This document shows, one piece after another, positions 38,859 through 60,665 of a stretch of 64,000 nt of DNA. Within the stretch, counting starts at the first letter, position 1, and each line of letters starts with the position of its first letter. Below the pieces are notes generated by a model that was not told where the DNA came from, made no database searches, and saw only the letters and a program-made list of their open reading frames with translations. This DNA is from Bacteriovoracaceae bacterium. Its GTDB lineage: Bacteria > Bdellovibrionota > Bacteriovoracia > Bacteriovoracales > Bacteriovoracaceae. The stretch is from positions 1 through 64,000 of the forward strand of contig JADHTQ010000005.1 of assembly GCA_016784965.1 (NCBI GenBank), in the 5' to 3' direction. The position numbers were made by a program, and so were the translations under genes.

Positions 38859-40649
38859 ATGAGAAGTAGAGTGCTAATGACATTAGAAAAGACATCTGTT
38901 TACCGTGAGCGCCTATGCGCCGTTGCCTTAGAAGACATTGATATTTTAAATCGCAAGTGTCATTTTTTACCAGAATCGTCGATGCATGACCTGGAATCAG
39001 ATATCGACAAACTTTTAAGAGCAAATATTTCTCAAAAGTTTAAAATTTTTCTTACTAATCCCTCCAATCAATCTGAAACTTGGTTAGAAAAAACGTATCA
39101 AGTAGCGACAAAAGAGGAGAGGATTGAGACTCTTCCATACTCGGTGGAGTACGATTTACCCAATAATTGTGAATTTGATATAAATGCATTTTTTACCAGC
39201 AGTTTTTCTTCTTTAAGGGCTGAACATCAAAAAGGGGTAATTAAGAGTTTAAACCTATCACTTTTTGACTCTTCTCGTTTAAGTTCAGTATTTAATGGTC
39301 TCTCAATGACCGGTAAAGAATTAGTGGAACCGATGCCCGCTTCAGAACCAGAAATACCTGTCAATAAAGGTTTACTAAACTGTTTTTTGACCTCCAAGAG
39401 GTCATTTTTTATTTCGAGTTATGTCGATTCTAGAAAGCGAGTCCAAGAGTTTGTAGCGGTTGCCAATAAATTAAAAAGGACGCCCGTGCTATGGACTTTT
39501 GCTGATGGTCTGCAAGTATTAGATGATCCAGGCACTAAGGTTAAGTATGTGTACCACGATCAATATCTCACACATACGAGGATGCACGCAAGACAGTTGA
39601 TTAGCTATATAAAAAATGAGGGCAAAAGAGATACACTGTATCTACTAGAAGATTTTCACTACTACTTGGCAAAAGATCACTTTAAAGGCCCAGAGTTTGC
39701 CGAATTGATATCACAGATTAAATCACTTGCTCCCTCATTAAAAGAGCTGGGAAGTGTCGTAGTAATTTTGTCGCCTAAGACGGATCTGCCACAAGAGATT
39801 GCTCCCATTTTTGAAGTTATCAAAGGGAACAAGGCAGATGATAAGTTTGTATTTTTGGAAAAATACGGAACTGATTTTACTAAATTGATACAAGAAAACA
39901 AGATGAAGCCAGTTGTGGGCAGAGATGAAGAGATCACACAATGCTTGAAAATCCTATCTAAAATGGAAACAAACAATCCATTATTAATAGGAAATGCCGG
40001 AGTTGGAAAAACTGCCATTGTAGAAGGATTGGCAGCAAGGATTGCAGAGGGAAGGGTTCCGAAATATTTTATGGGAAAAAAAATTATTTCCCTCAATTTA
40101 AACGCACTTATTTCCGATACAAAATACCGTGGCGAATTTGAAAGTAGATTGGAAGAAATTCTAGAAGAGGTGCGTGGTAACGCAGATAAAATAATTATAT
40201 TTATAGATGAGATACATACTTTATTAGGTTTGGGGTCCACTGAGGGCTCAGCAGGCGCTTCCAATGTGTTAAAACCGGTTTTGGCCCGTGGAGAATTTCC
40301 ATGTATTGGTGCCACAACTGGCGCAGAGTACGACCGCTACATTAGGCAAGATAAGGCACTAAGCAGACGCTTCCAGGTAGTAGAAGTAGAGGAGCCAGAT
40401 GAGTGGGAAGCATATCAAATGCTTCAAGGTGTTACCGAGGTGTTTGAAAAGCACCATGGGGTACGGATTTCAGATGATGCTTTACGTGTTTGTGTAAAGT
40501 TGTCATCTCAGCTGATCGAAGATCAGTGCTTTCCTGGAAAGGCGATTAAGATGCTCGATGCGATATGTGCGTCGGCGGTCTTTGAAGATATAAGAGACAT
40601 CGATTCTGATTTTGTTACTTATGAATTTTATAAATTAAAGGAGAACTGA
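38859..40649 (+). CDS. AAA+ ATPase: Ycf46-like domain fused to Clp D1-type module
   Basis: A 596-residue protein, first gene of the actin/coiled-coil operon. Residues about 330-590 are a Clp/Hsp100 first-ring AAA+ module: KYGTDFTKLIQENKMKPVVGRDEEI, Walker A GNAGVGKTA (about 378), sensor/pore region KYRGEFESRLEEIL, Walker B IIIFIDEIHTLLG (about 447), Arg-finger KALSRRFQVVEV (about 500). Only one ring is present: no D2, no ClpA N-domain. Residues about 180-325 resemble the inactive N-terminal AAA domain of Ycf46 (VLWTFADGLQVLDDP, TLYLLEDFHYYL, VVVILSPKTDLP). The start could instead be the ATG at 38877. Confidence 0.8.
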   Translation: MRSRVLMTLEKTSVYRERLCAVALEDIDILNRKCHFLPESSMHDLESDIDKLLRANISQKFKIFLTNPSNQSETWLEKTYQVATKEERIETLPYSVEYDLPNNCEFDINAFFTSSFSSLRAEHQKGVIKSLNLSLFDSSRLSSVFNGLSMTGKELVEPMPASEPEIPVNKGLLNCFLTSKRSFFISSYVDSRKRVQEFVAVANKLKRTPVLWTFADGLQVLDDPGTKVKYVYHDQYLTHTRMHARQLISYIKNEGKRDTLYLLEDFHYYLAKDHFKGPEFAELISQIKSLAPSLKELGSVVVILSPKTDLPQEIAPIFEVIKGNKADDKFVFLEKYGTDFTKLIQENKMKPVVGRDEEITQCLKILSKMETNNPLLIGNAGVGKTAIVEGLAARIAEGRVPKYFMGKKIISLNLNALISDTKYRGEFESRLEEILEEVRGNADKIIIFIDEIHTLLGLGSTEGSAGASNVLKPVLARGEFPCIGATTGAEYDRYIRQDKALSRRFQVVEVEEPDEWEAYQMLQGVTEVFEKHHGVRISDDALRVCVKLSSQLIEDQCFPGKAIKMLDAICASAVFEDIRDIDSDFVTYEFYKLKEN

Positions 40650-40652
40650 GAA

Positions 40653-42149
40653 ATGGTAGATTTTACGGCAATTGGTGGTGAGTTAGGGACTTCGACATCC
40701 AAATTTTCTTGTGAGGACACAATTATAATCTTTTCCTCTGTAGTTGGTGATGCTCTTACAAAGAATATGGAGGAGAGCTGGAGACTAATGAATAGGTCTA
40801 GTGATAATAGGTGGATCAAAAACTTGGCAATTTTCGATGAGCAGAGAAACTCATGGAGATATGTTGGGGCAATGACAAGATGCTCTGAAAAGTGCAACTG
40901 GTTTACAAAAAGAGGACTGATATCCAATAATGATGATGCGTATGTATCCATTAAGGCCGGTTTGTTTTTGTTGAACCATGAAAGGCAAAATCAGGGTAAG
41001 CCTGAGGTTGGCAGAGTTGGATTTGGATTTGGTATTACCGTTCGACACGGAGAGAACGTAATTGAAAAGTTTTTTAATTACATGAAGGGCAGGCTGGATG
41101 AAGAAGGTGGCAAAAAGTTTATTAACATCAAGGCCAAAAACGTAGCTACCAATGAAGAGAAGGACTTAAAGATTGAATTAGATTTTGCAGTCATGCAGTA
41201 CCAGGCATATGGTGCCTATATGACGATTCTATTTTCTAAATACAATATGCAAGTGTACAATACATATGTAATCGACATCGGTCATGGTACATGGATCAAG
41301 CTGCCCATTGTAGACAATGAAGCAGATGTTAACTTATCAGATTCAAGGACTGAAGGTATTTTTACTATCACTCAAAATATTTCTAAGCTAATTTTTGAAT
41401 CAAGTGGACAGAAGTTTAAAATCCCTGAGCAAAAAATTATGGAGAAGTTGCCCTCTAAGGACTATAAAATTGAGGTCCCAGGGGTTGGCGTTTTTGACTT
41501 CCAGCGGCTTCTAGAGCACGAGTGTCGGCAGTTGGCAGTAGATATCGTGGAGCATGCGATAAACGACTTTGCGATACTATCTCAGAAGGGTCATACAATA
41601 GATTACTTTACCATTATAGGTGGTGGTGCTCATCTGCTATTTGATACTATTAAAGAAGAGATCGGCAACTACTTTCAATGGCCAAAAGAGATCATGGATA
41701 AAAAAGTTATTGCACCCGCATCTCTTGGAATCGACAGTCGTTATATCAACTGCGTGGGCTTTATGCTGCTTGCTAGAGACCAACACGCGATTGAGCATGA
41801 CGAGGATGTAGATCCCAATTTTGAATTAAACCATATTGTTTTTGATATTGACCTCGACGCCGATGGCAAGAAGATGGATAGCAGAATGGTTTCTAAAATG
41901 GAAGGCCATAAGCACGAGGAAGAAAAGAAAGCGGCTGATAAAAAAGCAGCTGAAGAGAAGAAAGCGGCTGACAAAAAAGCAGCTGAGAAGAAAAAAGCTG
42001 ATGATAAAAAAGCTGATGATAAAAAAGCTGATGATAAAAAAGCTGATGATAAAAAAGCTGATGATAAAAAAGCTGATGATAAAAAAGCTGATGATAAAAA
42101 AGCTGACAAGAAAGCTGACGACAAGAAAAAGAAGAGTGACGCCAAGTAA
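40653..42149 (+). CDS. ParM-like actin-fold ATPase 1 with KADDK repeat tail
   Basis: A 498-residue protein with the actin/Hsp70 nucleotide-binding pattern. Phosphate-1 is AIGGELGTSTSKF (6-18). Phosphate-2 is YVIDIGHGTWIKLP (about 205-218). The adenosine loop is FTIIGGGAHLLF (about 319-330). This arrangement (D-I-G-x-G-T) is like ParM/StbA and archaeal actins rather than MreB. The body ends at about 415; the rest is a Lys/Ala/Asp-rich tail with seven ADDKK units. It probably forms filaments; the tail could bind membrane, DNA or partner proteins. ATG 3 bp after the AAA+ stop, with AAAGGAGAA. Confidence 0.8.
   Translation: MVDFTAIGGELGTSTSKFSCEDTIIIFSSVVGDALTKNMEESWRLMNRSSDNRWIKNLAIFDEQRNSWRYVGAMTRCSEKCNWFTKRGLISNNDDAYVSIKAGLFLLNHERQNQGKPEVGRVGFGFGITVRHGENVIEKFFNYMKGRLDEEGGKKFINIKAKNVATNEEKDLKIELDFAVMQYQAYGAYMTILFSKYNMQVYNTYVIDIGHGTWIKLPIVDNEADVNLSDSRTEGIFTITQNISKLIFESSGQKFKIPEQKIMEKLPSKDYKIEVPGVGVFDFQRLLEHECRQLAVDIVEHAINDFAILSQKGHTIDYFTIIGGGAHLLFDTIKEEIGNYFQWPKEIMDKKVIAPASLGIDSRYINCVGFMLLARDQHAIEHDEDVDPNFELNHIVFDIDLDADGKKMDSRMVSKMEGHKHEEEKKAADKKAAEEKKAADKKAAEKKKADDKKADDKKADDKKADDKKADDKKADDKKADDKKADKKADDKKKKSDAK
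41998..42102 (+). repeat. Seven perfect 15-bp tandem repeats in the actin-1 tail
   Basis: Unit GCTGATGATAAAAAA occurs seven times, encoding ADDKK, and is followed by degraded copies to about 42120. Repeats of this perfection are prone to slippage but stay in frame (15 bp). Upstream (41928-41997) a related AADKKAAEEKK pattern precedes them. Confidence 0.95.
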
Positions 42150-42160
42150 CAGGAGGATAT

Positions 42161-42694
42161 ATGAATACATCATATTTGGTTATGGATAACGAGCTAAAAA
42201 CACTTGTTCGAGATTTCTCTAAGGGCTACCCCTATGGGGCCAAGGGTGGTCTCAAAATAGTGCTCAAGTATTACATGAAGTTTCATAAAAAGTGCCGTCG
42301 AAAGGGTGAAGATCCTATTGTTGCATTTGAAAAATTGGTTTCCCAATATGTTTCGGGGACACCTTATGGTGAGTCTGGTGATTTGAATTCGATTTTAAAT
42401 GAGAAAATTCGCAGTCTGGACACCATCCTTGAAGCTGATAGAAAAGTTCAGGTAAAAGGTATAGATGATGGATCGATACTAGATGCCATCAGAGAGGTTA
42501 AGAGTATTGTTCAAGGCATGGGCTCAGGCGGAGGCGGCGGTTATGGCAACGCTATGCCTAGAAAACTCAAGGATTTTAATCCCTCAAATCCAGCAGAACT
42601 TTTAAGGTTGGATAGAAATGCTAGTGTACCCCGAGAGCGTCAGAACTACAGGGATTTGAGAAAAAAGAAGGGGCAGAAAAAGGTTGAGTTTTAA
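42161..42694 (+). CDS. Hypothetical partner protein of the actin cluster, 177 aa
   Basis: I do not recognise this protein. A basic helical N-terminal domain (about 1-105: LKTLVRDFSKGYPYGAKGG..., later VSQYVSGTPYGESGD) contains a repeated 'Y-PYG..G' element. A glycine-rich linker follows (GMGSGGGGGYG), then a very basic tail (ERQNYRDLRKKKGQKK). By position between two ParM-like genes it could be an adaptor comparable to ParR, but no ribbon-helix-helix is visible; that is a guess. AGGAGGAT is a strong ribosome site, 11 bp after the previous stop. The stop overlaps the next ATG (TAATG). Confidence 0.72.
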   Translation: MNTSYLVMDNELKTLVRDFSKGYPYGAKGGLKIVLKYYMKFHKKCRRKGEDPIVAFEKLVSQYVSGTPYGESGDLNSILNEKIRSLDTILEADRKVQVKGIDDGSILDAIREVKSIVQGMGSGGGGGYGNAMPRKLKDFNPSNPAELLRLDRNASVPRERQNYRDLRKKKGQKKVEF

Positions 42695-43815
42695 TGTTTA
42701 CACCAACAAAAAAAATATTTGTTGATCCAGGTAACTTCTATACAAAAATTATTGTAATGAAGGCCGATGGTAGTGGCGGGTTCGAATTTTACGGAAAAAC
42801 CTTTTTCCCTTCAACCGTCACTCCTGCCGCCAAAGAGTCAGGTATTTCGATGCTCTATGGTAATCAGGAGGAAGGCCTGTTTGCAGTAGGACGAGATGCG
42901 CTCGTTTTAGGTGGTTTCACCTATGAGGAGGCAAAACTGCATCCTTGGGGCTGGCGTAGGGATAACGGCAAAAGTTTAGTTACAAAAATTTTGTATGATT
43001 ATGTGGATGAAAAAAACGAACAAATGGAAGTGACGTTTTTGTATGACAGCGCTGAAAAGTTGGCCCTTTTAAAAGAAGTGGTAAAAGACTACAGCAAAGA
43101 TGATGAATTGGTGCCAGTTGAAGCTTTTAGACATCTTGATCAGCACCAACATCATAAAAATACAGAAGTAAAATTTAACTATGTTCCAGTCAGTGATGTG
43201 TTACTAAATTATTTGACTTCATTTGGAGAAGAATTTCGCAAGAGCATAGTAGTAGACATTGCGCACAACGACGTTAAGCTCTTCATTATTGATTCTGAAA
43301 CAGGTGTGAGCCTGTTTAAGACCATAGAAATAGGGGTTAGTACCTACTATGAGAAAATAATGAAACTTTTAACTGAACAAGCGGAAAGTCGAGTGAATTA
43401 TGGTTGGCTCATAAAACAGATAGAGTGCGGCATCACCGAAATTGAGGTTGTATCAGAGATGGATACTTCCGACGGGGATGGACTCGCTATTAGTTTGTTG
43501 AGTGAGAGATTACTGGGAAAACCGAGTGTTCTATTGAATCATTTGAAACAGCGTTTTGACATAAACGACGTTATTGAAAATGTCAGATGGGATCTCAATA
43601 AAGATATTAAGAATATGGTTTATGATACACTGGTTACGTATTGTAGCAATAACGCCATAAACATTGATATCTTGGCCATAATTGGCGGTGGTGCAAATTA
43701 TAATGGAGAAATCCTCGCTCAGAACTTAGAGGAGGAGGAAATTTCGCCAGATATTATTGTGGTGAACGAAATTCCATTATATACTTTAGTAAAGAATGTA
43801 ACGGAGATGTGTTAA
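42694..43815 (+). CDS. Actin-fold ATPase-like protein 2 (divergent ParM-like)
   Basis: A 373-residue protein with the actin/Hsp70 plan. Phosphate-1 is KKIFVDPGNFYTKIIVM (5-21). The phosphate-2 position is SIVVDIAHNDVKLFII (about 183-198), where the usual DxGxxT is changed to DIAHND. The adenosine loop is AIIGGGANYNGEI (about 329-341). Loss of the glycine/threonine in phosphate-2 suggests altered or lost ATP hydrolysis, so it may be a regulatory or capping relative of its neighbours. The start overlaps the previous stop by one base, which indicates translational coupling. Confidence 0.75.
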   Translation: MFTPTKKIFVDPGNFYTKIIVMKADGSGGFEFYGKTFFPSTVTPAAKESGISMLYGNQEEGLFAVGRDALVLGGFTYEEAKLHPWGWRRDNGKSLVTKILYDYVDEKNEQMEVTFLYDSAEKLALLKEVVKDYSKDDELVPVEAFRHLDQHQHHKNTEVKFNYVPVSDVLLNYLTSFGEEFRKSIVVDIAHNDVKLFIIDSETGVSLFKTIEIGVSTYYEKIMKLLTEQAESRVNYGWLIKQIECGITEIEVVSEMDTSDGDGLAISLLSERLLGKPSVLLNHLKQRFDINDVIENVRWDLNKDIKNMVYDTLVTYCSNNAINIDILAIIGGGANYNGEILAQNLEEEEISPDIIVVNEIPLYTLVKNVTEMC

Positions 43816-43846: not shown

Positions 43847-44269
43847 ATGACGGAAACTAGCGCGATTACATCTAACAGGGTTGGCGGTCATGTTGGGCAT
43901 GGCTTTGATGCAAGTATGAATTTTTTAGGACAGGTGTCTGCTCATGTTGTCAATTCTGGAAAATTTATTATTGATATCGGTAGGCAGTGGGCACAAGCGT
44001 TTTTTGACGCGTGCCGCATGAAACCTAAAGAGGGGACTACCATTAAATATTTAGTAGGAGTGAAAGCTTCTGAATTTGACATGGAGTACCAGAAAGATTT
44101 CTACACCAATGTGGGTAAAGAACTAGTTGATCTTTCCAAAATGGACGAGCTTAGTGATGATCTATTAATTATTGATACATCAAAATTTAAGCATACGTTT
44201 AACGAGCTAGGTGACCAAAAGGACGTTGAGTCACCTGACATAGGGGTGCAAGGAGAGCAAAATGACTGA
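43847..44269 (+). CDS. Hypothetical protein of the actin cluster, 140 aa
   Basis: I do not recognise this protein. It is soluble, with a hydrophobic/amphipathic N-terminal half (about 15-55: VGGHVGHGFDASMNFLGQVSAHV; WAQAFFDAC) and an acidic C-terminal half ending in a disordered tail. No signal peptide or catalytic motif is visible. AAGGAG is 7 bases before the ATG. Its 3' end overlaps the next gene by 8 bp (ATGACTGA), so the two proteins are probably made in matched amounts and may bind one another. Confidence 0.7.
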   Translation: MTETSAITSNRVGGHVGHGFDASMNFLGQVSAHVVNSGKFIIDIGRQWAQAFFDACRMKPKEGTTIKYLVGVKASEFDMEYQKDFYTNVGKELVDLSKMDELSDDLLIIDTSKFKHTFNELGDQKDVESPDIGVQGEQND

Positions 44270-45485
44270 TGAATACGACAACGACGACAACATTCTAGAC
44301 AGACTCATTAAGGAGGTCGAGGTAGTTATCGATCCAGTTAATGAGGACAGGATTCTAGAACGTATTTCTGACTTGAAAAAGTCTGAAAAGAAAGTGGATT
44401 CTTCTACCCACTTCAAGAAAGGGAAATCGGTAGACTCGGATGACATGCCTGGAATTGATGTGTCGAGGGCCAAGACGGTTGCCAATCCGACTGATTCAGA
44501 CTCTATGTTGGGACTTGATATTGGTACCAGTAGAATTATCGGATTAAGAATCGATGGTGTCAGTGAGCCCAGTTCATCAAAGGATCTAAACGCCTATTTT
44601 AGAATACCATATTCAGATTTGGCCAAACAGATGTTGATCAAAAATAATATGAAGTATTTTAAAAGGGCCGAGAGCTTGTTTATATACGGCTTTGATGCAG
44701 AGTCTTTTGCCAATATGTTCAATGCAGAAATTTTGCGACCTATGGAGACTGGCTTATTAAAGTTGGGTGATACCATGGCCGTTCCAGCTGAAAAAAAGCT
44801 CATTGAATCAGTTATTGGAGCACCTGAAACCATTGGGGAGAGTTGCTGCTTTTCGATTCCGTCACCGGTAGAATCTAATGAAAGTAGTATTGTTTTCCAC
44901 GAACAGGTGTTGAAAAAATATCTTACAGGCTTAGGCTATAGAGCGCAGAGTATTTTTGAAGGCACATGTGTTGTTTTATCTGAGTTGGCTGAAAACAACT
45001 ATACAGGCATCGGCATCAGTATGGGCGCCGGGATGTGTAATGTAAGCTTCTCATTTTTGTCAGTACCAGTCATGTCATTTGGAGTTACAAAAGGCGGAGA
45101 CTACATTGATAGAAGTGTTGCTCAGATTGTTAAAGAACCTATGAACAAAGTTAGGATCATTAAAGAGCAATCACTAAACTTAGGTAAAGTTCCAACCAAC
45201 AGCCTAGAAAATGCACTACATGTTTACCACGAGGACTTGATTGGTACCTTGCTAAATGTCTTAAAGCAAAACCTACAAAATGCGAGTAATTTTCCTCAAG
45301 TACATGAAGAGATTCCTATTGTGATCTCTGGAGGAACATCTGCTCCCAAGGGCTTTAAGGAAAAATTTGAAAAGGTGCTAAAAACACTACATCTGCCTGT
45401 AAATATCTCTCATGTTAAAGTTGCAAGTGCTCCGCACCTTGCGGTAGCAAAAGGTGCTCTTATTAATGCAACAACAATGAAATAG
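44262..45485 (+). CDS. Actin/Hsp70-fold ATPase-like protein 3 with acidic N-terminal extension
   Basis: A 407-residue protein. Residues 1-80 are an acidic, partly helical extension. The actin-type core starts at MLGLDIGTSRIIGL (about 82-95). Phosphate-2 appears as GIGISMGAGMCNVSFSF (about 250-266; the leading Asp is replaced by Ser, the Thr by Cys). The adenosine loop is IPIVISGGTSAPKGF (about 351-365). The C-terminal ASAPHLAVAKGALI resembles the MreB/PilM/Hsp70-type end. It is therefore nearer to MreB/Hsp70-like proteins than its two neighbours are, and its catalytic pocket is degenerate. Confidence 0.75.
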   Translation: MTDEYDNDDNILDRLIKEVEVVIDPVNEDRILERISDLKKSEKKVDSSTHFKKGKSVDSDDMPGIDVSRAKTVANPTDSDSMLGLDIGTSRIIGLRIDGVSEPSSSKDLNAYFRIPYSDLAKQMLIKNNMKYFKRAESLFIYGFDAESFANMFNAEILRPMETGLLKLGDTMAVPAEKKLIESVIGAPETIGESCCFSIPSPVESNESSIVFHEQVLKKYLTGLGYRAQSIFEGTCVVLSELAENNYTGIGISMGAGMCNVSFSFLSVPVMSFGVTKGGDYIDRSVAQIVKEPMNKVRIIKEQSLNLGKVPTNSLENALHVYHEDLIGTLLNVLKQNLQNASNFPQVHEEIPIVISGGTSAPKGFKEKFEKVLKTLHLPVNISHVKVASAPHLAVAKGALINATTMK

Positions 45486-45495
45486 GGATGTAAAA

Positions 45496-46674
45496 ATGAG
45501 TTTTGGCACTGAAAGAAGAGAAGCTCCTCGTTTTGAAACTTCGGACTTACTATTTGAGTACCAAGATTACAAACTGGATGTACTAAATATTTCTAAAAAT
45601 GGCGTTTTAATTTACTCCCCTGATGGCTTACCTGAGGATTTGCTACTGTTGGCCAAAAGCCAACAGTTCGTTTTTTGGCTACACGATAAAGTTAAGGGTG
45701 AGTCAATGGAGTGCGAAGGCCGAGTCATCAGATGCATTTTAAAAGAAGACAACCATAGTTTCGACAAAGCCGCCATTGCCTTTAATCCAACTCAAAGTGT
45801 ACAGATGCAAAAAGAGTCATATGGCCCACACGTTATTGCTGTTGGTGGGTCAAAGGGCGGAGTTGGTAAGACTGTAACGGCAGTCAATTTATCATTAATG
45901 TTGGCCCTACTTGGAAAAAAGGTTACGCTATTTGATGCCGATTTTGGAGATGCTGATTGTCACACGATGTTGGGAGTGAGAAAACTAAGTAGTGATGTTG
46001 GAGACTATCTACATAATGAGGTTCGACTGGCAGATGCAAGGATCGACACTTCTTATAAAAATCTAAAATTAATTAGCGGGGGGGTAAATAAAATCGAAGG
46101 CATTGCCAAGCAGGTTCCACACCTGTGGAAGGATATGAAGACCCTTCCGTGCGACTATGTAGTAGTAGATTTAGATGCTGGTATTGGTGACCATACTATT
46201 GAGTTTTACAATAGAGCGGCTACCAAGATCATTGTGTTAACTCCCCAGTTTACATCGTTACAAAATGCCTACTCATTTATAAAGGCGTCGACCTATTCTG
46301 CACTTTATCAAAATTTCAAAATCCGAGAAAAACTAGGGGATATGGGAGATGATTTCACAAAATTGTTTCCTGCCATGAAATTGTTATCTAAGGATGATGA
46401 AATAAGCAAGGAGTTTCATTCAGTCTTAGAACAGCAGGGTTTTAAAATTATTGGAAACATGGTCAATTCGGAAAAAGAGCTTGGGTTTGTAAAAATCCTA
46501 ACCAAATTAGTAGGGGAGCATCTCGGGATTGAAAGTTCAATTTTAGATGTACTTAGACGCTGCAATGAAGTACATGATTCAATTAATAAAATTACACCAT
46601 TTATTGCATTGTCACCGGAATCAGAGAATGCAAGACGTATGAAAGAGATTGTGAATAGATTAATAAGACAGTGA
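45496..46674 (+). CDS. PilZ-MinD/ParA fusion ATPase
   Basis: A 392-residue protein. Residues 1-105 are a PilZ domain with both c-di-GMP motifs: RxxxR (R8-E-A-P-R12) and NxSxxG (N31-I-S-K-N-G36). The MinD/FlhG-type ATPase begins at about 115: deviant Walker A SKGGVGKTVTAVN, LFDADFGDADCH (switch I), VVVDLDAGIGD (switch II/Walker B) and the LVLTPQ-like VLTPQFTS. MinD/FlhG ATPases position cell structures. Here cyclic di-GMP would be expected to switch the ATPase. No amphipathic C-terminal MinD helix is obvious. RBS AGGGATG; 10 bp after the previous gene. Confidence 0.88.
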   Translation: MSFGTERREAPRFETSDLLFEYQDYKLDVLNISKNGVLIYSPDGLPEDLLLLAKSQQFVFWLHDKVKGESMECEGRVIRCILKEDNHSFDKAAIAFNPTQSVQMQKESYGPHVIAVGGSKGGVGKTVTAVNLSLMLALLGKKVTLFDADFGDADCHTMLGVRKLSSDVGDYLHNEVRLADARIDTSYKNLKLISGGVNKIEGIAKQVPHLWKDMKTLPCDYVVVDLDAGIGDHTIEFYNRAATKIIVLTPQFTSLQNAYSFIKASTYSALYQNFKIREKLGDMGDDFTKLFPAMKLLSKDDEISKEFHSVLEQQGFKIIGNMVNSEKELGFVKILTKLVGEHLGIESSILDVLRRCNEVHDSINKITPFIALSPESENARRMKEIVNRLIRQ

Positions 46675-51286: not shown

Positions 51287-52456
51287 GTGGACTTTGAATT
51301 GACGGAAGAACAGAAGTTACTAAGAAGTACAGTTAGATCTTTTGCAGAAGAAGAGATAAGACCGACCATGAAGGAGTTTGATAAAAAAGAAGAATTTCCC
51401 GTGGAGATAACCAAAAAGATGTTTGACTTGGGATTGTTTGGGATTTTTGTACCTGAAGAATACGGAGGTTCTGGTTTGGATTATCTTTCATACGTCATAG
51501 TCGTAGAAGAGCTGGCCCGTGTCAACGCCTCGTGCGCTGCAACTGTGGCAGCCGGCAACTCTTTGGGCATAGGTCCCATCTACTATTTTGGTACAAAGGA
51601 GCAAAAACAAAAATATCTTCCACCATTATGTAGTGACAAAAAACTCTGGGGCTTTGGGTTGACTGAACCAGATGCTGGCTCAGATGCTTCTAATACAAAA
51701 ACTACAGGTTTGATCAAAGATGAAAGAATTATTTTAAATGGTGCTAAAATCTTTATTACCAACGCATCATCACCACTTACTTTGGGCTCAACAGTTCAAT
51801 TTAAAAGCGGTGTAAAAGATAATGGGAAAAAAGAGTTAAGTTGCGCTTTAGTATTAAATAATACGGACGGTTTCACCCAAAAAACTATGAAAAATAAGAT
51901 GGTCTGGAGATCCTCAAATACAGCAGAGCTCTACTTTCAAGACTGTACAGTACCCCAAGAGAACTTATTGGGAAAAAAAGGCGATGGCCTAAAAATAATG
52001 CTTTCCACTTTAGATCGCGGCAGACTTTCTATTGCTGCAATGGGGCTAGGTGGTGCTCAAGGTGCCTATGAAGCTGCTCTTAGGTATTCAAAACAAAGAG
52101 TGCAGTTTGGTGTACCAATTTCAACTATGCCCGTAAATGCTTTCAAATTGGCGGAGATGGCCACTCGAATCGAGGCGGCAAGGTCGCTTTTATATCGCAC
52201 GTGTTGGGAGCTAGACAATAATAAACCATTTGCAGAGCACGCTGCCATGAGCAAGCTATATTGTGCCGATGTAATGCGCTATTGTGCGAACGAGGGAGTA
52301 CAGCTGCATGGCGGATATGGCCTGATGGAAGAGTTTGATGCGGCCATGTTTTTTAGAGACCAAAAACTTCTCGATATAGGGGAAGGAACTTCAGAAATTC
52401 AAAGGATGGTAATTTCTAGACATATAGGCTGTTATGATTTGGCGGGGGGTGCATAG
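51287..52456 (+). CDS. Acyl-CoA dehydrogenase (leucine/branched-chain or short-chain type)
   Basis: FAD flavoprotein oxidising acyl-CoA to enoyl-CoA. The 389 residues match the family. Marks: YGGSGLDYLSYVIVVEELAR, LTEPDAGSDAS (FAD/substrate contacts) and the catalytic Glu in IGEGTSEIQRMVISRHIG (near 375). Isovaleryl-CoA dehydrogenase carries its base on helix G instead; here that position lies in LDRGRLS, with Gly. The catalytic geometry is therefore of the SCAD/2-methylbutyryl type, even though the operon is liu-like. GTG start with AAAGGA. First gene of the operon. Confidence 0.87.
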   Translation: MDFELTEEQKLLRSTVRSFAEEEIRPTMKEFDKKEEFPVEITKKMFDLGLFGIFVPEEYGGSGLDYLSYVIVVEELARVNASCAATVAAGNSLGIGPIYYFGTKEQKQKYLPPLCSDKKLWGFGLTEPDAGSDASNTKTTGLIKDERIILNGAKIFITNASSPLTLGSTVQFKSGVKDNGKKELSCALVLNNTDGFTQKTMKNKMVWRSSNTAELYFQDCTVPQENLLGKKGDGLKIMLSTLDRGRLSIAAMGLGGAQGAYEAALRYSKQRVQFGVPISTMPVNAFKLAEMATRIEAARSLLYRTCWELDNNKPFAEHAAMSKLYCADVMRYCANEGVQLHGGYGLMEEFDAAMFFRDQKLLDIGEGTSEIQRMVISRHIGCYDLAGGA

Positions 52457-54079
52457 ATGACAATTCTTGCAACATCGATTAACAAAAATGAACGTTTCGA
52501 ACAAAACCTTAAGTTTAATCAATCATTATTAGAAGAACTAAAAAATAAAAATGAATCCGTGGCCCAAGGTGGGGGAGCCCGGGCCACAGAGCGACATTTA
52601 AAACGTGGTAAGATGTTTTGTCGCGAAAGAATTTCTGCCTTGATTGATCCAGGAACTTCATTTTTAGAAGTTGGAAAGCTTGCGGCCTATAATATTTATG
52701 ACAACAACTCACCCAGTGCAGGAATTGTAACAGGGGTTGGTCGAGTAAGTGGTGTTAACTGCATGATTGTGGCCAATGATGCTACTTGCAAGGGCGGAAC
52801 TTATTATCCTTTGACGGTAAAAAAGCATTTAAGGGCCCAAGAAATTGCAGAGTTTAATAATTTGCCCTGCATTTACTTAGTGGATAGTGGGGGAGCATAC
52901 TTGCCTCTTCAGTCTGAAGTTTTTCCCGATAGGGAGCATTTTGGCCGTATTTTTTTTAATCAAGCCAGGATGAGTGCAAAAGGTATTACTCAGGTAGCTG
53001 TGGTGATGGGAAGTTGTACTGCAGGTGGAGCGTATGTTCCGGCCATGAGTGATGAGACTATCATTGTAAAAAATCAGGGAACGATCTTTTTGGCAGGGCC
53101 ACCGCTTGTAAAAGCGGCAACAGGAGAAGTGGTAACAGCAGAAGAGTTAGGCGGCGGTGAAGTACATACTATGAAGTCTGGAGTTGCCGACTATCTGGCA
53201 GATAATGATGCTCATGCACTAGAGTTGACCAGAGAGATTATTGACAACTTAGAGGATAAAAAATCTTATTCCATAAGAAAGTCGTTGTTTAACAGATCGG
53301 AGAGTACTCCTCCTGTTAACGAGATTAAAGAAATACTGGGGATTATACCGACAGATCCAAAAATTCCTTTTGATGTTCGCGAAGTGATATCAAGAATAGT
53401 TGATGGATCACAATTTCACGAATTTCGTCCACTTTATGGCACTACTTTAGTTTGTGGATTTGCCCATATGCATGGGTATCCCGTGGGCATTGTTGCCAAC
53501 AACGGAATTCTTTTTAGTGAAAGTTCTCTTAAGGCAGTGCACTTTATTGAGCTGTGTGAAAAGCGGCAAACCCCATTAATATTTTTACAAAACATTACAG
53601 GATTTATGGTGGGCAGAGAATATGAGCAGGGAGGAATCGCCAAAGATGGTGCCAAAATGGTGACCGCTGTAGCAACAACTTCTGTACCTAAAATTACGGT
53701 AGTAATTGGTGGCTCTTTTGGTGCTGGCAATTACGGTATGTGTGGAAGAGCATATGATCCAAGGTATCTGTTTATGTGGCCCAATGCCAGGATATCTGTG
53801 ATGGGTGGTCCACAAGCCGCTGATGTTTTAGGCCAGGTCAAGGTTGAACAATTGGCAAAAGAGGGGAAGCATTTATCTAAAGAAGAAGTAGAAGAAATTA
53901 GACGTCCGATTGTAGAACGTTATGAGCTAGAGGGCTCTCCATACTTTAGTAGTGCTAGGTTATGGGATGATGGAGTGATCAATCCACTGGATACGCGCAA
54001 GATCTTAGGACTTTGCTTAGAAAGTATTCAATTTGGTAGTCCGAGCCACGATAGGGGCTTTGGCGTTTTTAGAATGTAA
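52457..54079 (+). CDS. mccB: Methylcrotonyl-CoA carboxylase beta subunit (carboxyltransferase)
   Basis: Transfers carboxyl from biotin to 3-methylcrotonyl-CoA in leucine catabolism. The 540 residues are the usual length. N- and C-terminal crotonase-fold carboxyltransferase halves are seen. Family marks: VASQGGG-type [101 protein letters not shown] and [18 protein letters not shown]. The last two are typical of MCC-beta/geranyl-CoA carboxylase; the context favours MCC. It starts immediately after the dehydrogenase stop (GCATAGATG). Confidence 0.93.
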
Positions 54080-54099
54080 GTTTTTTTTGGAGGTGTGTT

Positions 54100-54900
54100 A
54101 TGCAGGATTTTGAAACAATTCTAACGACTAAAAAAGATGGTGTACTGGAAATTAGTCTCAATCGTCCGGCCAAAAAGAATTCTTTTAACCCTACAATGAT
54201 TAAAGAGCTATCTACGGTCTTTGAAACTTTAGCATTAGCACCAGAAATATATGTGGTAGTCATTCGAGGCAGCCGGGATCTCTTTTGTGCAGGTGCTGAT
54301 CTGGGGTGGATGAAAGATACTATGAACTATTCTCAGCAAGAAAATGTTGAGGATGCACTTCGATTGTCTCATATGTTTTCTCTTATCAACGACTGTCCTA
54401 AAGTTGTAGTTGCCGTTGTTCATGGCTTTGCAATCGGCGGTGCTGTGGGTCTTGTTAGTGCCAGTGATTACGTTATTGCCGAAAAAGAAACTAAGTTTTC
54501 ACTATCAGAAGTGAGGTTAGGACTAATACCAGCTTGTATTGGACCTTTTGTTGAATCTAAGATTGGAGAATCTTGGTCCAGGGCCCTCTTTTTAAGCGCT
54601 GAGCGTTTTGATGCCAATAAGGCCCAATCTATTGGTCTTGTGCATGAGGTGATTGATGGAGTATCTAATTTGCAAAAGCGCTGTGAGCAGCTGTGCAAGA
54701 ATATTTTAAGTTGCTCTCCCTTGGCACAAAAAGTTGCCAAGAATTTTTTAAGTGAACTAAAGCAGCTTCCAGACTGTGACAAAAATAAGTGTGCCGCCAC
54801 AACCCTGGCCAATTTGCGCACGACAGATGAAACCCAAGAGGGGTTGAGTGCCTTTTTAGAAAAACGCAGTCCAAATTGGAAAAAATTTTATGAAAACTAG
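54100..54900 (+). CDS. Enoyl-CoA hydratase, probable methylglutaconyl-CoA hydratase
   Basis: Crotonase-superfamily enzyme of 266 residues. Marks: SLNRPAKKNSFNP, the oxyanion/CoA loop DLFCAGADLGWMKDTMNY, and AVVHGFAIGGAVGLVSASDYVIAEKETKFSLSEVRLGLIPACIGPFV, where the SEVRLGLIP block holds a catalytic Glu. Its place between MCC subunits points to hydration of 3-methylglutaconyl-CoA (LiuC-type). An HMG-CoA lyase (last step) is not in this operon. Its end overlaps the biotin carboxylase start by 11 bp. GGAGG precedes the ATG. Confidence 0.87.
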   Translation: MQDFETILTTKKDGVLEISLNRPAKKNSFNPTMIKELSTVFETLALAPEIYVVVIRGSRDLFCAGADLGWMKDTMNYSQQENVEDALRLSHMFSLINDCPKVVVAVVHGFAIGGAVGLVSASDYVIAEKETKFSLSEVRLGLIPACIGPFVESKIGESWSRALFLSAERFDANKAQSIGLVHEVIDGVSNLQKRCEQLCKNILSCSPLAQKVAKNFLSELKQLPDCDKNKCAATTLANLRTTDETQEGLSAFLEKRSPNWKKFYEN

Positions 54901-56389
54901 TGGAAAAAAATTATTGGTTGCCAATCGAGGCGAAATTGCTTGTCGAATATTTGAGACATGTCAACTGCTTGGAATTAAAACTTACGCTATAGTAGCAGAT
55001 AACGATTTAGCGTCAAGGCACACAAAACAAGCAGATGTAGTGATATCTCTTAAAGGTGATGGGCTCAGCTCGACCTACTTAGATCAAGAGCAAATTATAA
55101 ATTGTGCAATGGAACATGGAATTGATCTCATTCATCCAGGTTATGGATTTTTAGCTGAAAATGCCCAATTTGCAAAAAAAGTGGAAGAAAATGGCATTAC
55201 TTGGGTTGGGCCGCACTCTGACGCCATTTTAAAGATGGGATCAAAAATTGAATCAAAGGCCATAGCAGAAGCTGCCAACATTCCAATATTGCCATGGTTT
55301 AAAATTGAAGACACTAAACAATTGGATGAAATTGTATATAAAGCAGCTGAAATTGGCTATCCACTGCTTATTAAAGCTTCTGCAGGTGGTGGTGGAAAGG
55401 GTATGAGAATTGTTCACAGCTCAGAGGATCTTGTGGGGGCAATTCGCCAAGCTCAGGATGAAGCTGGTGCCAGCTTTGGAGATGCCAGTGTTTTTATGGA
55501 GAGATGGATTGAGACCCCAAGACATATTGAAGTGCAGGTAATGGGCGATAAATGTGGTAACTATTTTCATCTTTTTGAAAGAGAATGCTCGGTGCAAAGG
55601 AGGCATCAAAAAGTAATTGAAGAAGCACCGGCCTTTAATTTAAATCAGACGACAAAAAGTTTGTTATATGAAAGTGCGGTAGCTCTTGCTGAATATATGA
55701 ACTACGACAGTGCTGGAACGGTTGAATTTATCTTAGATGAAAAACAAAATGTTTACTTTTTAGAGATGAACACTAGGATACAAGTCGAACACCCTGTAAC
55801 TGAGATGATAACTGGTGCAGATTTGATCGAGATGCAGATTAGGGCCGCATTGGGTGAGCCACTACATAGTTTACAAAAGCTTATTCCCGCTGTGCCCTTT
55901 GGTCATGCAATTGAGTGTAGAATCTATGCAGAAAACGTTGAACAAAACTTTATGCCATCACCTGGAGAGATTAATAAATTGGAGTGGCCCATCTTAAAAA
56001 ATGTTCGCATTGATTCGGGCATTAGTGATGGAGGGGAGGTGACTTCATTTTATGATCCAATGATCGCCAAACTCATTGCCTGGGGAGCAGATAAAAATGC
56101 AAGCATAGAGTGCGTTCTAAACGCCTTAAACAAAACGACCATTCTTGGGGTGGTTCACAATATTGAATTTTTAAAAGTACTGCTATCTGAGACGTCATTT
56201 ATAGAGTCGACCCTTTCGACTAACTGGCTTTCTGCGCATGTAGAGTCTGTAGTAAAGAAGACTCATGTTGATCCTAAAGAGTTAATGGAAGCAGCTTTAC
56301 TAGTAATAAAAAATAGACCAATTTCTTGCCGGAGCGGTGATTATAAAGAGCAAAAGATGGTTTCGTTGTTTGAGGAGATTGTCCTATGA
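54890..56389 (+). CDS. Biotin carboxylase subunit (split MCC alpha)
   Basis: ATP-dependent carboxylation of biotin. It is 499 residues long; a full MCC alpha is about 650-700, and here the biotin domain is the next gene. Order: N-terminal KKLLVANRGEIACRIFETC (4-22), the ATP-grasp domain with KASAGGGGKGMRIV (near 159), FLEMNTRIQVEHPVTEMITG (catalytic Glu/Arg), and the C-terminal domain GHAIECRIYAEN with biotin-carboxylase cap (PSPGEINKLEWP). The stop and the next ATG overlap as ATGA. Confidence 0.92.
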   Translation: MKTSGKKLLVANRGEIACRIFETCQLLGIKTYAIVADNDLASRHTKQADVVISLKGDGLSSTYLDQEQIINCAMEHGIDLIHPGYGFLAENAQFAKKVEENGITWVGPHSDAILKMGSKIESKAIAEAANIPILPWFKIEDTKQLDEIVYKAAEIGYPLLIKASAGGGGKGMRIVHSSEDLVGAIRQAQDEAGASFGDASVFMERWIETPRHIEVQVMGDKCGNYFHLFERECSVQRRHQKVIEEAPAFNLNQTTKSLLYESAVALAEYMNYDSAGTVEFILDEKQNVYFLEMNTRIQVEHPVTEMITGADLIEMQIRAALGEPLHSLQKLIPAVPFGHAIECRIYAENVEQNFMPSPGEINKLEWPILKNVRIDSGISDGGEVTSFYDPMIAKLIAWGADKNASIECVLNALNKTTILGVVHNIEFLKVLLSETSFIESTLSTNWLSAHVESVVKKTHVDPKELMEAALLVIKNRPISCRSGDYKEQKMVSLFEEIVL

Positions 56390-56856
56390 AGTACGATTTA
56401 AACTATGGAAAACATGCATACACCCTATCCATTGTGGGATCTGAGGTACAATTGATTCAAGATGAGAACGTTGTCTGTGCTGGAAATTTAAAAAAGCTGG
56501 AACCAGCTCTGGCAGAGCAAATACATGTAAAGGTTGGTGCCTTGACCTTTGTAAAGAGGGAAAATAAGCATCTTTGCTTTGAACTGGCGCCAAGCGCGGG
56601 CAGAGGGACTGCCAAGGAGAGTAATTCTTCACCCTTGATTGAAAGTGTAATGCCTGGCAAAATTGTTGCTATACATGTGCAAAGAGGTCAACTTGTTAAA
56701 AAAGGAGACTTATTAGTGACGATGGAGGCGATGAAAATTGTAAATGATATTGCTGCAACAATGGATGGAGCGGTGAGTGAAATTTTTATCGAAGTAGGGC
56801 AAATGGTCGCTGTAAAGAGCAAACTGGTAGAATTGGCACCAACAATTGATAGCTAA
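56386..56856 (+). CDS. Biotin carrier subunit with biotinyl domain (split MCC alpha C-terminus)
   Basis: A 156-residue protein. The first about 65 residues are a beta-rich part corresponding to the BT linker of MCC alpha (LNYGKHAYTLSIVGSEVQLI). The biotinyl/lipoyl domain follows (SVMPGKIVAIHVQRGQLVKKGDLLVTMEAMKIVNDIAAT). Biotin would be carried by the Lys in EAMKIVND. Translation is coupled to the biotin carboxylase (4-bp ATGA overlap). Together the two proteins replace the single alpha chain, an arrangement like AccC/AccB. Last gene of the operon. Confidence 0.9.
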   Translation: MKYDLNYGKHAYTLSIVGSEVQLIQDENVVCAGNLKKLEPALAEQIHVKVGALTFVKRENKHLCFELAPSAGRGTAKESNSSPLIESVMPGKIVAIHVQRGQLVKKGDLLVTMEAMKIVNDIAATMDGAVSEIFIEVGQMVAVKSKLVELAPTIDS

Positions 56857-57231: not shown

Positions 57232-58527
57232 ATGAATGAACAAGGGCATAATGGATTTATTGCCAGGAGTGGTGTTTTCTTGGCCAAAAAAGTTGGGAAA
57301 ACTGTCGGGGGAATCGGGATGTTAACCTACGGTACACTTCGAGGCACAAAGAGGCTTCTAACGCTTGACTTTAAAAGGAAAAAGAGACCTAAGCAAGCAC
57401 ACAGTCCTGTGGGTGTCGGAAAGAAGGAAGACAAAAACCTAGCTGAAATGCGGGCTCGCGCAACAGAGTTGCAAAACAAAATTTCAGAACTCTACTTAGT
57501 AATGGGCAAGTTGGGAGCTGAAAGTAGTGGAGAGGAAAGTGCCGAAGGTGGTGCTGGAGTGTTCCAAAATCAGAAAGTCAAAGGTGTCATCAACGAGATT
57601 GAAAAGCACGAAGAAGAGCTTCGGGCCTTAAGAAAGTATCTGGATGCATCAAAAGAAGCGGCGAAAAACAACAAGCCAATACCCGCTTATGAAGTGCCTC
57701 AGCGTACTGATCTTCCAGGACGCTCTGGAAAGCGATTAGATTCCCTAATTGCTAATTGTCGGAACAAAGTGACGTTTCCTCTAAAATCGGAAGCCATCTT
57801 CTTTGATAAGATTCTGACAGATCTGCAAGATGATGAAATAGACATTAAGAGGCTTGCAGTAAGTGAGCTCGGCAAGATTGACAGACAGGAAGTCATTCCT
57901 GTGTTGTACGAACTGCTAGAGATCAAAAACGACCTACTACAGGCTGAGGTCGTAAGTTCACTGGTTCAGCTTGATGATAGCAACATGTTTGCTACTTGCA
58001 AGCGGTACATTACTCACGGCTATGCAGGTGTCAGAAACGCTGCGGTTAGAGGGCTGTACAAGTCTGGTGAAAAGGCAGCAGTTCCAATGCTACTCAAGTC
58101 TTTGCGTGATGAAAATGTAGAGGTTAGAAACGCATCGGCCATGTTCTTAGGATGGCTCGGTGATAAATCAGCTGTACCATCACTCCTACAATCCGTTGTG
58201 GACATTGATGAGAGAGTTAAAAAGAGCGCCTTAGCATCTCTTGTGAGTTTGAAAGAGAAAACATCGGTTGTACCCATGATGAGAATCCTGGATACAGATG
58301 ACAAGAAATTGCAAACTCAAGTCATTGATGCCATTGAGATGATAATTGGTAAGAAAGTAACTTTTTCTACCGACTTAAAAGGCGAGCAAAGGACGGCTGA
58401 GGTAACGAAGGTCAAGGAATGGTACCTGCGAGAGTTGCATGGTTTAAATGATTCAACTTCTGCCAAGCCAAAAGAAAAGGCAATGAAAGTAAAACTCAAT
58501 AAAAAGGTGAAAGAAGAGAATGACTGA
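57232..58527 (+). CDS. HEAT-repeat protein with membrane-like N-terminal segment
   Basis: A 431-residue scaffold protein. Residues 10-40 are a glycine-rich amphipathic segment (RSGVFLAKKVGKTVGGIGM). A coiled region (about 60-140) follows. Residues about 180-400 hold PBS-lyase-type HEAT repeats, each about 31 residues: DIKRLAVSELGKIDRQEVIPVLYEL, GVRNAAVRGLYKSGEKAAVPMLL, EVRNASAMFLGWLGDKSAVPSLLQ, RVKKSALASLVSLKEKTSVVPMM. The last about 70 residues contain a conserved-looking KEWYLREL and a Lys-rich end. Likely a protein-binding platform. The stop overlaps the next ATG by 8 bp. Confidence 0.85.
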   Translation: MNEQGHNGFIARSGVFLAKKVGKTVGGIGMLTYGTLRGTKRLLTLDFKRKKRPKQAHSPVGVGKKEDKNLAEMRARATELQNKISELYLVMGKLGAESSGEESAEGGAGVFQNQKVKGVINEIEKHEEELRALRKYLDASKEAAKNNKPIPAYEVPQRTDLPGRSGKRLDSLIANCRNKVTFPLKSEAIFFDKILTDLQDDEIDIKRLAVSELGKIDRQEVIPVLYELLEIKNDLLQAEVVSSLVQLDDSNMFATCKRYITHGYAGVRNAAVRGLYKSGEKAAVPMLLKSLRDENVEVRNASAMFLGWLGDKSAVPSLLQSVVDIDERVKKSALASLVSLKEKTSVVPMMRILDTDDKKLQTQVIDAIEMIIGKKVTFSTDLKGEQRTAEVTKVKEWYLRELHGLNDSTSAKPKEKAMKVKLNKKVKEEND

Positions 58528-59188
58528 TCAAAATTATACCCTCGAGAAGAATTCTAAAGTAGGCTTTGAAATTGTTGAAAAACCGGAGCCAGTGGTTCAG
58601 CAGGACATAGCAAAGGAGTTTCTCACCAGAGAAGATGAACTCTACGTTGCTAAACAGAAACTGCTGCACAACTTAAAGGTAATGATTACCATCAATCAGC
58701 AGCTGGCAGATGATATTGACAAGGTCTCAACAGACAACAGTAAATATCTGGATTCAATCAGGCAGTTGAAAACACAGTACGATACGCTCATTAGTGAGCA
58801 TAAAACTGTGGTGGCACAAAACAAAGAGGTCTTGGCCAAAATAACATCTGCTCGGATTGGTTGCAATCGCTTAATTGGTGATATGGGATTTTTAAAAGAT
58901 GAAAATGCCAAACTCACTGATTGGGTGAATGGTAAGTCGAAGATTTTCGGCGAGCTGCTTGATAAGATGGAAACTGTCAAGCGCAACTATGACTTTGTTG
59001 TTGGTGAAGCAAACTTTTCTGAAGATATTCTTTCTTCTGTTGAATCTTTGGTTAACAAAGCATTTGAGCAAAAGAAAGATATCACGAAAAAAATTAATGT
59101 TACCAAAGACAAAATGGATGTTCTTTTTAATGAGTTGAGTACATCGTTAAAAGACAAAAAGATGGCGTTTTATCAAAAACAATCTTAA
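58520..59188 (+). CDS. Coiled-coil protein of the second cluster, 222 aa
   Basis: I do not recognise the family. An acidic unstructured N-terminus (about 1-40) leads into continuous coiled coil (about 45-215; LHNLKVMITINQQLADDIDKV, YLDSIRQLKTQYDTLI, KKDITKKINVTKDKMDVLFNEL). No membrane segment is visible. It starts inside the HEAT gene's last codons (ATGACTGA), with AAAGAAGAG upstream, so translation is coupled to it. Confidence 0.75.
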   Translation: MTDQNYTLEKNSKVGFEIVEKPEPVVQQDIAKEFLTREDELYVAKQKLLHNLKVMITINQQLADDIDKVSTDNSKYLDSIRQLKTQYDTLISEHKTVVAQNKEVLAKITSARIGCNRLIGDMGFLKDENAKLTDWVNGKSKIFGELLDKMETVKRNYDFVVGEANFSEDILSSVESLVNKAFEQKKDITKKINVTKDKMDVLFNELSTSLKDKKMAFYQKQS

Positions 59189-59213
59189 GTGTTAACTAAA
59201 AAGGGTGTTTAGT

Positions 59214-59888
59214 ATGGAAAATGAAACAAGCGTGGCGGAAGTAGGCAGTGTTAAGATTAATTTGCCTCATCAAATTGAAGATGTAGTAATTAAAGAGCAG
59301 CTCAGAAAAATTTCAGATTTAAGAATTGATGAGATTGTTAACATCTCGGCTGATCAGTTTGAAAAAAATATTAAGGATATGTTATCTTCAATTAAAGAAT
59401 TAGATTATAGCCTCAAGTGCTCTTTGGATCTAAGTCAAACTCTAAAAAAGGAAGCACAGGAGAATGACGAAAAAATCAAGGGGCTAATGGAGGAGAACCA
59501 GAAGTTAAATAAACGTATTCTCGATTTAGAAAATAGCATTCCTCAGGTTAAGGATATTGAGATGAAGATGGATTTAACTCATCAGGAGCTCAACAAGTAT
59601 AAGGGAATGTACGCTGAGGAACTTGCTAAAGTTGAGAGACGTCAAGAAGAAAACACGGCCCTAAAGAGCAGTTACAACAGTATCAAGGAAGAGTGTGAGG
59701 ATCTCAAGAGAGAGAACTCTATGTTTAATACAGAGAGAGTTCGAGGTCTAAGCGAAAAAGATGAAATTATAAGTGACCTAGAAAGAAGACTCAAAACTGC
59801 AAGCATTGAAACAGTTGAAATCTCAAAAGAGCTAGAGCAGACAAAAGAGGAACTTGTGAGCATTTATAAAACCTTAAATGTTAGATAG
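59214..59888 (+). CDS. Coiled-coil protein of the second cluster, 224 aa
   Basis: Unrecognised. Acidic, with long coiled coil from about residue 60 to the end (KKEAQENDEKIKGLMEENQKLNKRIL; ELNKYKGMYAEELAKVERRQ; EIISDLERRLKTA). The N-terminal part (KINLPHQIEDVVIKEQLRKI) may be a small interaction domain. The ATG at 59214 follows AAAAAGGGTGTTTAGT; a GTG at 59205 adds three residues and is not preferred. It lies 25 bp after the previous gene. Confidence 0.75.
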   Translation: MENETSVAEVGSVKINLPHQIEDVVIKEQLRKISDLRIDEIVNISADQFEKNIKDMLSSIKELDYSLKCSLDLSQTLKKEAQENDEKIKGLMEENQKLNKRILDLENSIPQVKDIEMKMDLTHQELNKYKGMYAEELAKVERRQEENTALKSSYNSIKEECEDLKRENSMFNTERVRGLSEKDEIISDLERRLKTASIETVEISKELEQTKEELVSIYKTLNVR

Positions 59889-59900
59889 GGAAATAAACAG

Positions 59901-60665
59901 ATGAAAAATAAAGTATCACGTTTAAAGAATAAACTAGATGAAAATTGGGAAGCGATTAAAGATCGCTTCCCGATTGTTATTGATGCAGAACTTGTCGATA
60001 AGGATTCTGTTCAACAGGATGTCTTAAAGTACTTTGATGGATTAAAAAGTGCCGACGAGATAAGAGAATATCTGTCCTTAGACAAAAGCGATGCACATCT
60101 AATCTTTGTTGACCTGTTAAGATCTGGTGCGGTGCGCTTTTTAGAAGATATTGAGCGCCCAAAGTATATTAAAAATCGCAACATCGAACTCAAAAACAAC
60201 TTAGAGTTCTTAAAATCAGAAAAAACGCGCTTGATCGGTGAAGAGTTGTACCTTAAAGAGCAAATTGTTGATAAGGAAAGGGAATTAGAAGCTTATAAGG
60301 CCAAAGTTCCCGAGAATGAAAAGGTCTTAGGTGATCTCAACCAGAAGCTTGAGAAGCTTAAAATTGAGCCTGACAAGCTATGGAAAGAAAATGCGGATCT
60401 GTTTGCTTTAAAAAATGAAATGTTTGGAAAAGAAAAAAAGATTCGAACTGTTCTTCGTGAGCTAGAGACTGGATTGCCAAGATTAATTAAAAGAAAAGTA
60501 CGATTAGATAACTTGATTAAACAGTCAGAAAGTGGTATCGATGTAAAGAATGTTGAACGAGATAATAGCTTGAGCGAACTCTTTACTTACCGTGATACCA
60601 TCGATGAGATTAAAAGTGATCTTTTTGCGACTAAAGCACGGCTTAGAGAGTTAGCTGACGAGTAA
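59901..60665 (+). CDS. Winged-helix plus coiled-coil protein of the second cluster, 254 aa
   Basis: Unrecognised as a whole. Residues about 30-90 (VQQDVLKYFDGLKSADEIREYLSLDKSDAHLIFVDLLRSGAVRFL) match the winged-helix pattern found at the C-terminus of DUF4388 proteins, where it serves as a DNA- or protein-binding module. The rest is coiled coil (KNNLEFLKSEKTRLIGEEL onward). It shares position, size and coiled-coil character with the two preceding genes. RBS AGGGAAAT; 12 bp after the previous stop. Confidence 0.75.
   Translation: MKNKVSRLKNKLDENWEAIKDRFPIVIDAELVDKDSVQQDVLKYFDGLKSADEIREYLSLDKSDAHLIFVDLLRSGAVRFLEDIERPKYIKNRNIELKNNLEFLKSEKTRLIGEELYLKEQIVDKERELEAYKAKVPENEKVLGDLNQKLEKLKIEPDKLWKENADLFALKNEMFGKEKKIRTVLRELETGLPRLIKRKVRLDNLIKQSESGIDVKNVERDNSLSELFTYRDTIDEIKSDLFATKARLRELADE

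Follow-up and report, generated by a model that had tools for sequence, protein, structure and literature searches.

Mitosis, meiosis, DNA repair and bacterial immunity all employ pairs of a HORMA protein and a remodeller of the AAA+ class (ATPases associated with diverse cellular activities). A HORMA protein can itself be an adaptor: p31comet has this role for TRIP13, whose pore engages HORMA proteins (PMC4439613, in excerpt). Magnetosome chains have been described via filaments, HEAT proteins and coiled coils; in strain RS-1, Mad23, which contains HEAT repeats, the coiled-coil proteins Mad25 and Mad26, and the actins Mad28 and MamK build and place magnetosome subchains (PMC12748827, in excerpt), and ATPase domains are reported for Mad22, 25, 27, 29 and Man6 (PMC9840458, in excerpt). 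Here, we analysed a stretch of 64,000 nucleotides from a Bacteriovoracaceae bacterium of the phylum Bdellovibrionota (contig JADHTQ010000005.1, positions 1 to 64,000; hereafter the window) and focused on an open reading frame at 38859-40649 (+), which is uninterrupted and encodes 596 residues, as a preliminary description of the window had stated. Its product fuses a HORMA domain, a Ycf46-type N-domain and a single Clp D1 ring, and is a new architecture assembled from known parts; the three domains are established by profile and by predicted structure. The surrounding region is a cluster of the magnetosome chain-organisation (mad) type of Bdellovibrionota.

Like TRIP13/Pch2 and their HORMA proteins (Mad2, p31comet and the HORMA-Trip13 pairs of CBASS, the cyclic-oligonucleotide-based anti-phage signalling system), the fusion protein pairs an AAA+ motor with a HORMA domain. 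However, the HORMA is here fused and lacks the safety belt, the motor is a Clp D1 with a Ycf46-type domain in between, and no cyclase is adjacent. With ClpA, ClpB and ClpC it shares a complete D1 including pore loop, Walker motifs and arginine pair, but it lacks their second ring, Clp N-domain, middle domain and ClpP loop region. It shares the non-ATP-binding N-domain with Ycf46-type AAA proteins, whereas their own ATPase domain is swapped for Clp D1 and a HORMA is added in front.

Residues 321-576 matched the ClpB, ClpV and ClpA family models, the best being NCBIfam ClpB (E 6.6e-95 over 321-572); the ATPase of the fusion is thus a Clp D1 and not a Ycf46-type ATPase domain. In the full-length AlphaFold model (predicted local distance difference test, pLDDT, 74.7; predicted template modelling score, pTM, 0.44), residues 327-596 aligned to D1 of ClpC, ClpB and ClpA with Z up to 31.7 in VIA. 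The aligned ClpB chain range was far longer than the count of aligned residues, which fits the absence of a middle domain from the fusion protein. Walker A, Walker B, the pore loop KYRGEFE, the RRF pair and PGKAI were kept in all nine aligned relatives; in the window protein we take Walker A to be residues 378-385, the pore loop 422-428, Walker B 446-454 and RRF 503-505. Neither Clp_N nor D2 was among the family matches of the protein, and the chain ends after D1; without a D2 there is therefore no ClpP-binding loop.

To trace the region between HORMA and motor, a profile built from four N-terminal halves was searched over 368 genomes of the phylum (E<=0.01). Sixteen genomes matched, and eight of them hold the fusion, including G130, which was counted although its frame is broken by an undetermined or masked run. 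Four others encode separate Ycf46-type AAA proteins of about 500-540 residues (E 8.0e-7, 1.7e-6, 3.5e-5 and 7.6e-4), a name that we assign from their signature motifs. The remaining four (G258, G287, G015 and G114) are not fusions and were not assigned to Ycf46, and three of them carried internal stops. When the Ycf46-like part alone was aligned with the four Ycf46-type proteins in hhalign, the match reached 97.6% (E 3.9e-12, 118 columns), compared with 1.7% for the Ycf46-like part against TRIP13 and 0.05% for the HORMA part against Ycf46. This result identifies residues ~180-322 as a Ycf46-type N-domain. No Walker A was present up to residue 322 in any of the nine aligned relatives, and by inspection the order of strands and helices in the model fits an AAA core without a P-loop.

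The preliminary description had proposed an inactive Ycf46-like domain joined to one Clp D1 ring, without a second ring or a ClpP-binding loop region. The motifs that it quoted are present, and both halves hold in the searches and structural comparisons above; the Ycf46 similarity of the N-terminal half, whose absence from profile searches it had named as decisive, was found. It had overlooked the HORMA domain at residues 1-141 and the magnetosome-type context of the cluster.

On the window protein, the Pfam model bacHORMA_1 gave E 0.2 with the full-length sequence and 0.055 with the N-segment alone. It was found at E<=0.1 in six of ten family N-segments, always spanning model positions ~16-24 to 136-146 of 169, with the best score in the relative at L066 (E 1.1e-7; 32.3 of the 35.6 bits needed for the curated cut-off). 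The scan of the phylum recovered three HORMA proteins above that cut-off, each followed by a TRIP13-like AAA gene, and the ten fusion N-domains aligned with these three at 73.5% (hhalign, E 3e-5, 117 columns; control 0.1%). Searching PDB sequences with the N-terminal half or the HORMA part gave no useful match, one search returning three at chance level. Because all listed Foldseek and VIA rows for the full-length model fell on D1, the HORMA part was modelled separately (residues 1-145; pLDDT 80.3, pTM 0.76). With this model, the best Foldseek match was 6p8v_H, a HORMA of E. coli MS115-1 from CBASS (E 4.2e-4), and the best VIA match, likewise to the E. coli CBASS HORMA, had Z 9.1 and a root-mean-square deviation of 3.2 over 119 residues, placing model residues 15-141 on chain residues 18-141. 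All 50 listed rows were HORMA-containing entries in both the Foldseek and the VIA lists, among them CBASS HORMAs, Mad2, Rev7, HIM-3, HORMAD1 and ATG13:ATG101 (chain identity within complexes was in part taken from titles). The predicted model thus has the HORMA core fold, and residues ~5-141 are assigned to a HORMA domain.

The structural match ends at residue ~141, and no C-terminal safety belt of the Mad2-type metamorphic HORMAs was seen in the model. At its place lies a linker (residues 142-176) which, with its counterparts in nine sequences, varies from 35 to 108 residues at a mean identity of 0.16; pLDDT in the full-length model is below 50 over residues 137-169. The strand at 105-112 was considered as a belt-replacing 'loop-engaged' state (PMC13381836, in excerpt) and dropped, since CBASS HORMAs have a similar segment.

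A natural split form was found in genome G374, outside the 368 genomes of the phylum. It encodes a separate 128-residue HORMA protein (E 8.1e-17), whose end coincides with the end of the fused HORMA, and in the same cluster a 518-residue HORMA-less protein that combines Clp D1 with a Ycf46-type part (E 1.3e-13). The two genes are separated by those for a STAS protein, a Volactin-type actin (1.4e-78) and a transporter; upstream, the cluster encodes coiled coils and a HEAT protein. This arrangement confirms the domain borders, and it suggests that the HORMA and the Ycf46N-ClpD1 parts act together. The STAS-domain protein (L112:4619-4981, minus strand, 5e-10) is flanked by the Volactin-type actin and the stand-alone HORMA gene. 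In the search that recovered the split form, further matches in G447 and G481 were read as Ycf46 by position and frame only.

Consistent with the preliminary description, actin-like genes adjoin the fusion gene: the first starts 3 bases after it in the same orientation, with a further five genes close behind. This operon is conserved in relatives. Genomes G039, G019 and G025 keep the order fusion, actin 1, a protein of ~180 residues, actin 2 and Volactin-type actin; at the size cut applied, two of these genomes also show the gene of ~140 residues. In L061 and L063-L066 a HEAT protein and coiled coils precede the fusion gene.

The fusion was present in eight of the 368 genomes, and Volactin exceeded its cut-off in the same eight. 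Seven of the eight fusion genomes, and none of the 360 others, carry a membrane protein from the mamAB operon (alignment A6); A6 misses G130, which is 84% complete. Two NCBIfam models, MamK and MamQ, were tried as genome markers and replaced by A6, as control genomes were also positive. At L010 a MamA-like gene (1.2e-48) and at L009 a MamQ-like gene (2.4e-19) adjoin, both below the curated cut-offs, and the genome of L063 is listed with a magnetosome cluster (PMC13200544, in excerpt); the fusion is thus linked to mam/mad genes. In the window genome, a different contig (C81) carries genes resembling MamA, MamQ, MamB and MamE; their scores, too, stay under the curated cut-offs (211 of 350 bits for MamB). 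Across contigs from 84,980 species, a single-protein search returned no relative, while an alignment of eight N-terminal halves retrieved nine loci; the titles read Oligoflexia or Bdellovibrionales for seven of them, Deltaproteobacteria for one and proteobacterium for another. One of the nine, Kiruna3_bin-3974, is named as a carrier of a magnetosome gene cluster, and complete Bdellovibrionota clusters are described as lacking mamK and containing mad28, with mad17, 23, 25, 27 or 30 systematically retrieved (PMC13200544, in excerpt). The fusion gene may be what others call mad27. Those parts of the magnetosome literature that we consulted held no description of a HORMA, Ycf46 or Clp part in mad proteins, and 'AAA' and 'Clp' were absent as word starts from the main text of PMC13200544. 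Among the papers listed for HORMA and magnetosomes, none concerned this protein by its title, and a search for a magnetosome gene cluster with AAA and Clp found none.

We therefore lean, with somewhat better than even confidence, towards the fusion protein being an AAA+ remodeller dedicated to the apparatus that organises magnetosome chains in magnetotactic Bdellovibrionota, namely a HORMA-guided single-ring unfoldase. This reading is drawn from the domains, the motor motifs kept in all nine relatives, the tight operon with three actin-like genes kept in relatives, the HEAT and coiled-coil neighbours, the mam-like genes, the co-occurrence and the split form in G374. In such a mechanism, the beltless HORMA would dock on a partner, adaptor-like as p31comet does for TRIP13, the catalytically dead Ycf46-type domain would couple docking to the Clp D1 ring, and this single ATP-hydrolysing ring would pull on or thread a substrate with its pore tyrosine. 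The likeliest substrates would be scaffold proteins encoded alongside it, whether actin-like or coiled-coil, and the motor might take the scaffold apart or reset it during the moving, splitting or rebuilding of chains. We infer hexamer, ATPase activity, docking partner, substrate and biological effect alike, and filament depolymerisation is one of several possible actions of the predicted remodeller. A bolder version, which we hold tentatively and at rather less than even confidence, is that a bacterial HORMA outside immunity directs an unfoldase of the Clp type to the cytoskeleton of an organelle, so that p31comet/TRIP13-like logic within one protein takes apart the actin or coiled-coil scaffolds of magnetosomes and the beltless HORMA is a permanent adaptor. 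If true, the HORMA-AAA+ partnership would reach the bacterial cytoskeleton through a HORMA fused to a Clp motor within a cluster for organelle positioning, and magnetosome chains would gain a candidate energy-driven remodeller. The architecture hints at an unsuspected route to reshaping the bacterial skeleton, with a docking domain related to human cell-division controllers, and the split form lets partners and substrates be tested directly.

Several observations weigh against a dedicated remodeller. The link between the fusion and the filaments is one of gene neighbourhood, and the window's HEAT and coiled-coil block lies ~17 kb away from the fusion gene. Every mam-model score is under its curated cut-off, and the Fisher values of co-occurrence (1e-16 and 5e-14) ignore kinship. 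On the HORMA side, bacHORMA_1 stays below its curated cut-off in all N-segments and is absent from four of ten, the fusions score 0.0015-0.037 in the 368-genome scan and overlap the noise, and Pfam gave no match for the stand-alone 128-residue HORMA. Moreover, as far as can be seen, the missing safety belt rules out an ordinary Mad2-type switch.

Among other explanations, the one that survives best, though we think it unlikely, is a structural hub whose D1 ring would serve ATP-gated oligomerisation, so that the protein would nucleate, cap or tether actin filaments to coiled coils without threading. The single ring, the docking domain and the scaffold-rich surroundings would suit such a hub, but all nine relatives retain Walker B, the arginine pair and the tyrosine of the pore loop, beyond what oligomerisation alone seems to require. 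A general disaggregase or chaperone that lies in this cluster by chance is improbable. The window genome encodes two further Clp proteins, to which the fusion D1 is 42-46% identical; this closeness favours a chaperone, yet the presence of the two further proteins speaks against it, the fusion lacks D2 and the Clp N-domain, and its distribution tracks the magnetosome genes. Similarly, we regard it as quite improbable that residues 1-141 form an unrelated alpha+beta domain: the sub-threshold Pfam scores, the moderate Z and the 10-12% identity speak for an error, whereas the sequence profile (at L066), the profile-profile alignment and both structure lists converge on HORMA, with no other fold among the 50 listed rows of Foldseek or VIA. 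An anti-phage, CBASS-like HORMA-AAA module is hardly credible: although the closest HORMA structures are CBASS HORMAs, no nucleotidyltransferase or effector was seen beside the fusion gene, the neighbours are magnetosome-type, and the AAA part is a Clp D1 and not of the TRIP13 type (PADLOC TRIP13 model 3e-5, against 6.6e-95 for ClpB).

Features of the fusion gene and its neighbourhood in the window (positions, strand and basis of each assignment)
Feature	Position	Strand	Basis
Fusion gene HORMA-Ycf46-like-Clp D1	38859..40649	+	596 residues; 9-sequence family alignment
HORMA domain without belt, residues 5-141	38871..39281	+	Foldseek/VIA on domain model; bacHORMA_1 in 6/10 N-segments; hhalign to true HORMAs
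Variable low-confidence linker, residues 142-179, at safety-belt position	39282..39395	+	pLDDT, family alignment
Ycf46-type N-domain without Walker A, residues 180-322	39396..39824	+	profile searches, hhalign, alignment
Single Clp D1 AAA+ module, residues 330-596	39846..40646	+	family models, structure comparison, alignment
Actin-like protein 1, Lys/Ala/Asp-rich tail	40653..42149	+	MreB-like_C 5e-5; partition protein phrog_691 3e-10
177-residue protein, conserved C-terminal peptide	42161..42694	+	no family; alignment of 7
Actin-like protein 2	42694..43815	+	weak MreB-like_C 0.0085; position conserved in relatives
140-residue protein	43847..44269	+	no family matched
Volactin-type actin	44262..45485	+	PF25216 5.8e-74; co-occurs with fusion
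PilZ - MinD/ParA ATPase	45496..46674	+	family matches
Receiver domains and long coiled coil, 1471 residues	46718..51133	+	family match; coiled coil by inspection
HEAT-repeat protein, Mad23-like by domain content	57232..58527	+	HEAT_2 9.2e-23
Three coiled-coil proteins	58520..60665	+	taken by eye as counterparts of the coiled coils that precede the fusion in other genomes; order in L061, L063-L066

Volactin is known from an archaeon, and Haloferax volcanii was positive as a control in our scan. The strong full-length matches reported here are in bacteria with magnetosome-type clusters (5.8e-74 in the window; 1.4e-78 at L112:3300-4469), and the window copy is possibly the counterpart of Mad28. 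In all seven copies of the 177-residue protein, a variable linker joins a conserved N-terminal part to a basic/aromatic C-terminal peptide that is likewise conserved and looks like a short binding motif; the peptide was considered as a closure motif for the HORMA, against which the missing belt counts. The 1471-residue protein contains two receiver-domain stretches, and shorter similar counterparts stand directly after the fusion in L061, L063, L064 and L065. An operon of acyl-CoA dehydrogenase/biotin carboxylase type (51287-56856) separates the actin block from the HEAT and coiled-coil block, which form a single block in relatives. Further downstream, a ParA/MinD-like protein (61948-62763, minus strand) has, as judged by eye, a close relative at L040:13970-14821 (minus strand), beside the mam-like operon of G039.
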